From: Hanstruepera neustonica
GTDB taxonomy: Bacteria; Bacteroidota; Bacteroidia; Flavobacteriales; Flavobacteriaceae
NCBI RefSeq assembly: GCF_002895005.1
Contig: NZ_POWF01000001.1
Coordinates: 598,344-662,343, forward strand
Length of the DNA: 64,000 nt
Direction: 5' to 3'
Shown one piece after another: positions 16,656 to 19,907 of this stretch (position 1 is its first letter; each line of letters opens with the position of its first letter). Both the position numbers and the translations under genes were made by a program. Under the pieces are notes generated by a model, which searched no databases, was not told the origin of the DNA, and was given only the letters and a program-made list of their open reading frames with translations.

Positions 16656-16781
16656 AGAGATGTTTGTTAATGACGTAAAAATATAAAAGAAATCTATTCT
16701 GTTAAGGATTACAACGTTTAAACTTTCAACATTGTTATAATAAGCTTAAATTTGCGCTTTTATAAGCGGAAAAACAGGACG

Positions 16782-19700
16782 ATGAAATACAATTTCAACG
16801 AGATAGAAGCCAAATGGCAAAAGTATTGGACAGACAACCAAACCTTTAAAGCGGACAACCATTCAGACAAACCTAAATATTACGTATTGGATATGTTTCC
16901 ATATCCAAGTGGTGCCGGACTGCATGTTGGGCATCCGTTAGGGTATATTGCTTCCGATATTTATGCACGTTTTAAACGCCATAAAGGGTTTAACGTTTTG
17001 CATCCACAAGGCTATGATAGCTTTGGATTACCAGCGGAACAGTATGCTATTCAAACTGGTCAGCATCCTGCCATTACCACTGAAGAAAATATTAAAACCT
17101 ATCGCAGACAGTTAGATCAAATCGGGTTTTCATTCGATTGGTCTCGTGAAATTCGTACCAGTGACCCGAGTTATTACAAATGGACCCAGTGGATTTTCAT
17201 TCAACTGTTCAACTCATGGTATAATTTTGATAGTGATAAAGCCGAAAACATTGAGACGCTAATTTCTGTTTTCGAAAAAGAAGGAAATGCTAACGTGAAT
17301 GGGGCTTGTGATGATGATGTAGTTGATTTTACTGCGGAAGAATGGAATGGTTTGTCTTCTGAAAAACAACAAGAAATTTTATTGCAATACCGATTAACCT
17401 ATTTAGCAGAAACCGAAGTCAATTGGTGTCCTGCTTTAGGAACGGTTTTAGCAAACGATGAGATTGTCAATGGCGTTTCAGAACGTGGCGGACATCCTGT
17501 GGTTAGAAAGAAAATGACCCAATGGTCTATGCGTATATCGGCTTATGCTGAACGCTTATTACAAGGATTGGAAACCATCGATTGGACAGATTCTCTAAAG
17601 GAGAGCCAACGCAATTGGATTGGTAAATCGGTTGGAGCCTCTGTGACTTTCAAGGTTAATAATCATGATGCTGTAATTGATGTCTTCACCACACGTCCTG
17701 ATACTATTTTTGGTGTGTCTTTTATGACTTTGGCACCAGAGCATGAATTAGTGGCGAAAATCACAACGGACGAACAAAAGGCTGAAGTAGAAGCCTACAT
17801 TGAAGCAACGGCTAAACGCAGCGAACGCGATAGAATGGCCGATGTTAAAACTATTTCTGGTGTGTTTACCGGTGCTTTTGCCGAGCATCCCTTTACTAAA
17901 GAACCCATTCCCATCTGGATTGGCGATTATGTTTTGGCAAGCTACGGAACAGGAGCTGTAATGGCCGTGCCATGTGGTGACCAGCGTGATTATGATTTTG
18001 CCAAGCATTTCAATATTCCAATCCCAAATATTTTTGAAGGTGTTGACATTTCTGAAGAAGCCTTTTCGGATAAGGAAAATACGGTGATTGCTAACAGCGA
18101 TTTCCTTAATGGTTTGAATTACAAAAAAGCAACCAAACGAGCTATTTTTGAACTGGAGCAAATAGGTCAAGGTAAAGGCAAAACCAATTACCGTTTGCGT
18201 GATGCCGTATTTTCGCGCCAGCGTTATTGGGGCGAACCATTCCCAGTGTATTATGTTAATGGCATGCCGCAGATGATTGATGCCAAGCATTTACCCATTA
18301 CCTTACCAGAAGTAGAAAAATACTTACCAACCGAAACTGGCGAACCACCTCTAGGTAATGCCACCACTTGGGCTTGGGATACAAAAAACAATAAAGTAGT
18401 TTCTAATGAGATGCTGAAACAAGTTCAGCATGACAGCAAGAGTTCTGTCTCGTCGAGCGGAGTCGAGACGTCTCAGCACAATGGTGTATATCCTTTAGAG
18501 TTAAACACCATGCCAGGTTGGGCAGGCAGTAGCCAGTATTTTAACCGTTATATGGACCCACATAATGACACCGAAATCTTCTCGCAGGAAGCGGTGAATT
18601 ACTGGCAGCAAGTAGATTTATATATTGGTGGCAGTGAGCACGCAACTGGGCACCTATTATACGCACGTTTTTGGCAAAAATTTATGTATGATTTAGGCTT
18701 GGTACCTGTAGATGAGTTTGCTAAAAAACTCATTAACCAGGGTATGATTTTAGGGACGAGTGCTTTTGTTTATGAATTTATGCCAAATTATTCTCCAAAC
18801 TTTGTTTTTCAACATAATAAAGTATTTGTTTCTTCTAAAATTTTTATTGAAAATGCAGGCAATGAGTTTATTCAGGAAGAAATTTTCAAAACAATTTTTA
18901 ACGAATTGTATTCTAATTATTCTAGCGAGGAAAGAATTGAGATTAGAAGGTTGATCGATAAAGAAGAAATAGGTATTGGTTATTTGACAAGGCATGTTGA
19001 TGTATCATTAGTCAATTCTTCCGATGAATTGAATATTGATGCTTTCAAGAATTGGCGTCCAGAATTTGAGGAAGCAATATTCATTAGTGAAGAAGGCGAA
19101 GTAATTTCGAGAAAAGGTGGAATTTATAAAGTAGGTCGCGACGTCGAAAAAATGTCTAAATCTAAATACAACGTCGTTAATCCAGACCAGATTTGTGAAG
19201 ACTATGGAGCAGACTCTTTACGTTTGTATGAAATGTTTTTAGGACCTTTGGAACAGTACAAACCTTGGAATACTGCTGGTATTACAGGTGTGCATGGGTT
19301 CCTAAAAAAACTCTGGAAATTGTATGTTGATGACAATGGTATTAAGGTTACAGATGCGGAGCCATCAAAAGATAGTTTAAAAACGTTACACAAAACCATT
19401 AAAAAAGTAGAAGAGGATATTGAGAATTTCTCCTTTAACACGTCTGTATCTACCTTTATGATTGCCGTTAATGAGTTAACGGCTCAAAAATGTACTTGTC
19501 GTGACATTTTAGAACCCTTGATAGTATTAATTTCACCGTATGCACCACACATAGCAGAAGAATTATGGAGTCAGTTAGGTCATAGTGAGTCTATTTCAAC
19601 AGCGCCATTCCCAAAATTTGAGGAGAAATATTTGGTAGAAAGTAGTAAAAACTACCCGATTTCCTTTAACGGTAAAATGCGTTTTACGTTAGAGCTATCC

Positions 19701-19829
19701 TTGGATATGAGTAAGGAGGATATTGAAAAAACCGTATTGGCACACGATAAAACACAAGAACAATTACAAGGTAGAACACCTAAAAAAGTGATTGTAGTGC
19801 CTGGTAAAATAGTAAACATAGTAGGATAG
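16782..19829 (+). CDS. leuS: Leucyl-tRNA synthetase with unusual inserts
   Basis: Class I leucyl-tRNA synthetase, 1015 residues from the ATG at 16782 ([16 protein letters not shown], the family start). HIGH-type motif LHVGHPLGY near residue 45 and KMSKS in [10 protein letters not shown] near residue 790. The editing domain contains TFGVSF-like [14 protein letters not shown] and [19 protein letters not shown]. It is longer than E. coli LeuRS (860). Two inserts stand out: about 25 residues at 18402-18480 coming from a palindromic intergenic-type repeat, read in frame as [20 protein letters not shown]; and an AT-rich insert at about 18780-18960. The frame is unbroken, so the enzyme is probably functional. 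A -7-like TAAATTTG is at 16747-16754. Confidence 0.96.
18405..18478. repeat. Palindromic repeat element inserted in leuS
   Basis: Two adjacent inverted repeats: ATGCTGAA / TTCAGCAT at 18411-18431 and GTCTCG / CGAGAC at 18447-18469 with a CGAGCGGAG centre. Both half-site types are those of dispersed intergenic repeats in flavobacterial genomes. Here they lie inside the coding frame without a stop codon. Confidence 0.8.
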
Positions 19830-19831
19830 TA

Positions 19832-19907
19832 CTGTCATTCCTGCGTGTCACATTGAGTAAGCCTGTGTTGAGCTTGTCGAAACATCGAAATGAAGGCAGG
19901 AATCTTT
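19832..19907. repeat. Composite palindromic repeat after leuS
   Basis: Outer inverted repeat ATTCCTGC (19837-19844) / GCAGGAAT (19896-19903), with an interior holding CACATTGAG and GTTGAGCTTGTCGAA-type segments. The outer half-sites match the hairpins after greA and before the HIT gene, and the interior resembles the CGAGC repeat inside leuS. It is non-coding, ends with CTTTT and may double as the leuS terminator. Confidence 0.8.

Follow-up and report, generated by a model that had tools for sequence, protein, structure and literature searches.

Short palindromes lying in frame within the genes of functional proteins were reportedly described in Rickettsia by Ogata in 2002 and by Claverie and Ogata in 2003, as the Rickettsia palindromic elements (RPEs). 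In REPIN/RAYT systems, pairs of hairpins are spread over the genome. A further group, the CGTC-tagged REPs, was surveyed in 2013 (Di Nocera et al. 2013, PMC3733652), and Bacteroidetes and G. forsetii are named there as carriers. In the parts of this survey used here, most, but not all, CGTC REP tails fit CCA, and intragenic CGTC and GTAG REPs are described, some of them in the tRNA synthetase genes of three species, Xanthomonas oryzae among them. The RPEs are treated as already described, and coding palindromes have been on record since the Rickettsia work; a dedicated transposase for the CGTC kind was not found in that survey. The same parts of the survey do not describe repeats that recur at a single codon site in one gene across a family. 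In the portions consulted, PMC2864250 treats CRISPR only and PMC2635572 only tabulates RPE-bearing proteins. In the open-licence literature, to the extent of the text retrieved, we found no account of flavobacterial proteins in which REPs recur at one site, and the matches listed by a search with the repeat sequence look unrelated by title. What is known, from RPEs and CGTC REPs, is that such repeats can be coding; what is new is their recurrence at one enzyme site across a family.

The repeats studied here lie in leuS of Hanstruepera neustonica, within a 64,000-nt stretch of DNA that was analysed as a whole and is referred to as the window. Its relevant features are as follows.

16782..19829, + strand: leuS, leucyl-tRNA synthetase (LeuRS), 1015 aa (NCBIfam TIGR00396, E 2.8e-272; Pfam LeuRS editing and anticodon domains)
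17640..17684, + strand: editing-domain hairpin of leuS, residues 287-301 (site 2); empty in the window, with REPs or DUF559 in many relatives
18408..18435, - strand: REP of kind A, reversed (site 1); other rows of the LeuRS set carry this hairpin at the corresponding leuS position
18436..18445, + strand: spacer between REPs A and B, from the sequence
18446..18474, + strand: REP of kind B (site 1); 16 genome copies with covarying stems
19833..19904, + strand: intergenic REP 3' of leuS, TGTCATTCCTGC...GCAGGAATC; a plain hairpin in the same-genus genome G398

The start of leuS was taken as the homologous MKYNF; the listed ORF (16752-19829) starts at an upstream TTG. The initial annotation had placed two inverted repeats in frame inside leuS, with no stop and with about 25 added residues. 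The repeats, their coordinates and their peptide were correct, and the reading frame 16782-19829 is uninterrupted, with no internal stop. The net gain is 19 residues rather than 25, the interval from WAW to NTMP(GWAG) holding 42 residues in the window LeuRS and 23 in most relatives. What had been taken for one palindromic element is indeed repetitive, but it consists of two separate repeats joined as a head-to-head pair, in which the TGTC tags of A and B face each other (18408-18474). Kind A has an 8-bp stem, ATGCTGAA/TTCAGCAT, at 18411-18418/18424-18431, which is 100% complementary, with a loop of 5 nt; its TGTC tag is the reverse complement of GACA at 18432-18435, and it codes for EMLKQVQHD. 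Kind B comprises the tag TGTC, one T, the stem CGTC/GACG, the loop GAGCGGAGTCGA and the tail TCTC, and codes for VSSSGVETS; the GTCTCG/CGAGAC inverted repeat is placed at 18447-18452/18464-18469.

Measured against the CGTC REPs, as far as the consulted parts of PMC3733652 characterize them, A and B share a TGTC/CGTC tag adjoining the stem, and head-to-head dimers and intragenic units occur in both systems. Kind A agrees further, since an 8-bp stem reading ATGCTGAA corresponds to the stem of 8-9 bp beginning with AT, and its 5-nt loop to the loop of 4-5 nt. In contrast, the unpaired tails in the window (CTC in A, TCTC in B) do not fit CCA, and the variable 4-5 bp stem and 12-nt loop of kind B fall outside the descriptions; because its stem and loop lack these CGTC REP features, we call kind B a variant. 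The leuS repeats, and a repeat in hemW described below, resemble the RPEs in being in frame and missing in orthologues, with a working protein suggested by the conservation of the enzyme. They differ in their Bacteroidota host and in that one enzyme loop was hit repeatedly by several kinds. Hairpin pairs are likewise a point of resemblance to REPIN/RAYT systems, from which the H. neustonica genome differs in having no match to the Y1 transposase (PF01797), whereas controls were positive in 5 of 14; a resident Y1/RAYT transposase was therefore rejected as the mover. For the TGTC kinds, no mover was found with PF01797 in this genome or at 54 DUF559 loci.

In an alignment with 1h3n (T. thermophilus LeuRS), residues 461 and 493 bracket site 1, and site 2 lies directly before FTTRPD (residues 246-251). 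An AlphaFold model of LeuRS was built from 30 near rows; its mean pLDDT of 63.9 makes it informative on residues 547-565 only, and there the pLDDT was below 50. The extra peptide in these residues is thus probably disordered, as predicted by the model, and it most likely has no function for LeuRS.

We scanned the genome of H. neustonica (3.05 Mb, 16 contigs) for both kinds. Loops of the B type occurred at 19 places with at most one mismatch, at least three of which (L022, L023, L025) are chance matches judging by their surroundings. The loop was exact in 16 copies, and TGTC precedes it in 15 of the 16. Across these 16 copies, 74 of 80 positions of the 5-bp stem were paired, with 11 distinct stems, and none of 10000 shuffles did as well; the stem measures 4-5 bp in most copies and the loop 12 nt. 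Nine of the 16 copies lie within open frames, namely leuS, hemW, purL (two, paired), metH (two, paired), a CusA/CzcA-like gene and two further ORFs, of which one matches SusC/RagA over its first 117 residues and the other is a membrane ORF that NCBIfam does not name. A tenth copy, which overlaps the C-terminus of an ORF of 121 aa (L027), was left out of the nine. The coding copies use at least four reading frames (VTLSGVERS and LSPRAESRGL forward; RPLDSARGD and EFSTALKQT reverse), and head-to-head pairs are found in purL and metH as well. Kind A is rare, with three sites at up to three mismatches, and its only exact site is that in leuS. The annotation had also interpreted the segment as a repeat insertion, and the alignment and genome search run here argue for this: most related LeuRS are without the segment and read like VVSNDLIDNETVFPLELNT, and further copies exist in the genome. 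The absence of the segment from most relatives also led us to reject the idea of an old shared protein segment.

Within the genus, leuS differs from genome to genome. The A+B pair is common to H. neustonica and G385 (L117), while G230 has no repeat at site 1; no leuS was seen in either of the two stretches retrieved from G397. G398 (L235, sequence identical to L092) carries the B hairpin at site 1 with its length unchanged, which implies either overwriting or an insertion accompanied by an equal loss. For hemW, the search covered 16 genomes, of which one gave a weak match only. The in-frame REP was present in three of five genomes of the genus (H. neustonica and the congeners L208 and L209), missing in the congeners L210 and L211, and absent in all ten genomes outside the genus with a hemW that was read. 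The intergenic REP 3' of leuS holds a 47-nt REP block (19846-19892) within its loop, and this block is missing from G398 (L235, L092), so that the two genomes present a filled site and an empty site. In L117, another palindrome occupies the loop of the intergenic hairpin downstream of the leuS stop, and hairpin loops themselves may for this reason be targets.

To describe how often site 1 is occupied, a strict codon pattern was applied to genomes of the family, and a lengthened site was found in 31 of 397 (two pattern scans, 9 + 22). This is a lower bound owing to the strictness of the pattern; three of the 31 are longer by one residue only, L126 and L144 without a recognised repeat and L140 with kind E. 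An aligned LeuRS set of 123 rows was made up of the window, the best 80 of 587 confirmed LeuRS, 26 non-duplicate loci picked for longer segments and 16 loci picked for DUF559, two of which replaced shorter pieces of the same genomes; the duplicate rows L114, L118 and L137 were dropped. Site 1 was long in 42 of the 123 rows, and site 2, called by length, in 52 of the 106 rows without DUF559, proportions that are not rates because the set was partly picked. The site-1 count of 31/397 and a count of 16/199 for DUF559 within LeuRS, given below, are the sole counts from even samples.

A recognised loop was present in 33 of the 42 long site-1 rows and lacking in nine, several of which have other hairpins. 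Sixteen of the 33 hold B, six A+B, four A+E, two each D, C and F, and one E2, so that the hairpins are of five or more kinds (A/E, B, C, D and F). Stems of at least 6 bp were seen in 22 of 42 long rows (controls, 170 of 799 windows); for the short rows and their controls, the figures were 5 of 81 and 163 of 1584. The claim that a repeat adds residues holds in the window but does not extend to every occupied row: L092 and L039 hold a B-type repeat with no change in net length, and, with E, L094 and L140 likewise gained no residue or one. One-mismatch matches to the E or A core at site 1 in L035, L048, L109 and L112 consist of ordinary codons and were not counted. The peptide MLKQVQHD, which had been suspected of being a recurrent tag, does recur: MLKQVQHD or MLKQVQHE stands at site 1 in eight rows (the window, L078, L115, L116, L117, L119, L121 and L122), and in L113 and L132 it stands at the site in the editing domain. 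The number of B copies per genome had a median of 9 where B is in leuS (the leuS copy itself being counted in some genomes) and 0 in the others (17 genomes each, one-sided p 4.8e-4, kinship uncorrected). The first group took in all but one (G326/L134) of the 18 genomes with B in leuS and included H. neustonica, which scores 0 under the stricter B pattern of this comparison; the second was drawn from the first genomes without a match to the lengthened pattern. Site 1 forms a hotspot across the family, a feature beyond the initial annotation, which had missed it.

Four rows (L049, L070, L086 and L096) have DRLKAEVV (DRLKARVV in L070) at site 1 in place of DTKTNTVV. The coding DNA in L049, L086 and L096 is the palindrome-like CCGCCTCAAGGCGG, with the length unchanged, possibly another overwriting repeat.

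At site 2, a recognised loop of a TGTC kind was found in 31 of the 52 long rows and none in 21, and the peptides there include NVTLSAVEGS and IASEAKQS. On the leuS tree, the long state at site 2 took 34 changes, 21 of them forced, against 35 for shuffled labels, and is therefore not clustered.

We consider the segment in the window to be an in-frame, head-to-head dimer of TGTC repeats in a tolerant LeuRS loop, one of at least two loops hit recurrently, and put the probability of this reading at about 0.85. The segment is a repeat, is coding in frame, agrees with the genome's own repeat stock, recurs across species and differs within a genus, where the site can be occupied without a change in length. 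Two TGTC-tagged palindromic repeats would have entered the loop in frame, as a dimer, and would have been retained because the loop tolerates extra residues and that frame has no stop. Such hairpins may move or copy as single strands; most insertions into genes would be lost, while those in tolerant loops would remain. On a wider scale, hairpin repeats resident in the genome would insert into or overwrite at least two flavobacterial leuS loops repeatedly. The leuS loops look like recurrent landing places of mobile DNA because relatives hold different repeats, or a nuclease domain, there. Movement as a hairpin and neutrality of the insert would fit this reading, and the choice of site 1 may reflect tolerance rather than a target preference. 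Members of one family, with congeners among them for each case, differ in whether the loops of this single essential gene are filled, overwritten or empty, so that insertion, overwriting and loss can be tested directly.

How many separate insertions took place is uncertain, since some of the data also fit few old insertions or horizontal spread of lengthened leuS alleles. It could be supposed that leuS received one or a few ancient insertions, which were inherited or passed between species, while the repeats were later replaced, by concerted evolution or gene conversion, with those common in the respective genome, and were lost many times. We regard this as the main alternative and as rather unlikely, although several observations point towards it. 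Nearly all long TGTC-repeat rows end in N-G-[IV]-[YF] or nearly so, irrespective of the repeat kind, which favours shared ancestry or exchange, and the left junction is identical across several genera. The long state at site 1 is also somewhat clustered, with 10 to 15 of 500 label shuffles being as low. In addition, H. neustonica and G385 differ at none of 56 hairpin sites, as compared to 122 of 971 in the flanks; with the spacer included, 1 of 67 sites differs (p 0.003), and 30 of 2659 other windows are equally similar. Instead of neutrality, the unchanged hairpins may reflect a recent exchange or selection acting on them. Against a single origin, the leuS tree, computed with the two variable loops removed, required 29 changes in the long state, at least 18 of them forced by well-supported branches, which is little below the 35 for shuffled labels; an earlier tree of 109 rows gave 23 changes, 12 forced. 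Such changes do not separate gain from loss, and the trees make a single origin of the site-1 segment less likely. Furthermore, the kinds differ in reading frame and orientation, and the hemW repeat differs within the genus, its site being without repeats in 12 other genomes.

The identity of both hairpins in H. neustonica and G385, along with the covariation of the stems across coding and non-coding copies, would also be expected if selection acted on the hairpin at the level of leuS mRNA or DNA, where it might, for instance, have a regulatory or pausing role, with the peptide as a by-product. We find this improbable: the covariation is equally expected from multiplication of a repeat, 80 of 122 rows are without a long site-1 segment, the hairpins vary in kind, orientation and number, and folding of the window is modest (z -1.81, with 8 of 200 shuffles equally good), hence not extreme. 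The other window-level statistics are similarly weak. A 17-mer with three mismatches allowed had 2 matches in the window versus 0.44 expected from composition, and the B 15-mer had 1 versus 0.19. Taken by themselves, these values would suit an ordinary variable loop that looks palindromic by chance or codon-level coincidence, but the genome-wide B family, with covarying stems unequalled in 10000 shuffles, and the presence of the same hairpins at the identical leuS site in other species exclude a chance palindrome, an explanation to which we give almost no weight.

A concrete candidate for a moving enzyme lies in the same leuS loops in the form of nuclease cassettes. DUF559 (Pfam PF04480), which we take to be kin of the Vsr nucleases, was found in frame at LeuRS site 2 in L122, L127 and L133 (E 1e-16 to 1e-35). 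Among 199 genomes of the family, 68 reach E 1e-8 or better for DUF559; it lies within LeuRS in 16 genomes, within RecG in five and within MetH in four, and is fused before HemD in six, behind HisD in one and before a PLP-dependent dehydratase in one. The 17 LeuRS rows are L122, L127/L205, L133/L206, L147, L148, L152, L168, L176, L177, L179, L181, L183, L186, L188, L194, L196 and L203. In RecG (L163, L197, L198, L199, L200) and in MetH (L154, L158, L180, L195), the domain occupies one fixed site each, and in the examples of these two hosts the host model is matched by two stretches on either side of DUF559. It stands in front of HemD in L150, L178, L182, L190, L191 and L201, behind HisD in L149 and in front of the dehydratase in L202. 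For every kind of host, one or two members had their names confirmed with Pfam or NCBIfam, and the remaining names were taken from host motifs and trees. The residues DF..E-x-DG are kept in 15 of the 17 LeuRS-embedded copies, as in Vsr-like nucleases with the same domain, and in 4 of 4 MetH and 5 of 5 RecG copies. Catalytic residues are lost in the LeuRS copies of L122 and L168, and in L203, from a genome that is 64% complete, the frame is broken inside the domain.

In a tree of the DUF559 domain, from which L185 (a duplicate of L206) and L169, L170, L174 and L204 (fragments or distant matches) were dropped, the RecG, MetH and HemD copies each form one clade with full support and the LeuRS copies form two groups. 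The seven host labels required six changes, the minimum possible. On the LeuRS tree, the presence of DUF559 took 14 changes for 17 rows, 13 of them forced, versus 16.2 when shuffled, with 22 of 500 shuffles as low. Residence at fixed sites of LeuRS, RecG and MetH with site-specific lineages recalls homing endonucleases, where for DUF559 cleavage of the empty allele is predicted. The hosts differ from those of inteins in that the nuclease stays as an in-frame domain; a Pfam scan of three hosts (L154, L163 and L205) at E <= 1e-8 found host domains and DUF559 only, and no splicing domain. If the domain is active, this would be homing without splicing. Among the matches listed, titles and the beginnings of abstracts naming DUF559 or PF04480 mention neither flanking hairpins nor residence in essential proteins, and in the open-licence literature, to the extent of the text retrieved, we found no account of DUF559 as a mobile element.

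Strong, mostly C-rich hairpins accompany the nuclease. They were found on both sides of DUF559 in 13 of 20 free-standing copies and 12 of 34 embedded or fused ones, compared to 10 of 708 control windows, and on at least one side in 17 of 20, 22 of 34 and 52 of 708, respectively. The free-standing DUF559 of H. neustonica (L145, G000:C1:723943-724263, outside the window) has an internal TAA and lies between two C-rich hairpins that are inverted relative to each other. At site 1, a C-rich hairpin stands alone (kind F) in L139 and L206, both of whose genomes also hold DUF559, and C-rich hairpins occur there in L071, L104, L179 and L194 as well. At site 2 of L090 and L085, the flank peptides are present and the nuclease core is missing, and these look like the remains of a DUF559 cassette. 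A DUF559 nuclease lying between two such hairpins would most likely be the mover of the C-rich kind. Only 1 of 54 DUF559 loci (L176, kind D) has a TGTC-kind loop within 250 nt, and a link between DUF559 and the TGTC repeats of the window is therefore not favoured.

A broader proposal, which we hold tentatively and at somewhat less than even odds, is that DUF559 in Flavobacteriaceae forms hairpin-nuclease-hairpin cassettes that home without splicing, and that the coding palindromes of leuS, including the C-rich ones at site 1, are their miniatures or remains, a similar nuclease perhaps moving the TGTC repeats. The cassette would insert in frame into fixed loops of the LeuRS editing domain, RecG and MetH, be translated as a permanent extra domain, cut alleles without it, and decay into short in-frame hairpin scars. 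In one genus of eight genomes, several of them drafts, the DUF559 sets vary between members: G406 and G410 have none, G405 and G408 hold other copies only, G409 has the domain in RecG, G176 in MetH, G350 in LeuRS and RecG, and G407 in MetH and LeuRS.

A further stretch of LeuRS is variable as well. Between NQGM and KMSKS (window 18735-19163), its length ranges from 83 to 201 residues among the rows that were read; it consists mostly of sequence that is not repeat-like, and it looks exchangeable as a block.
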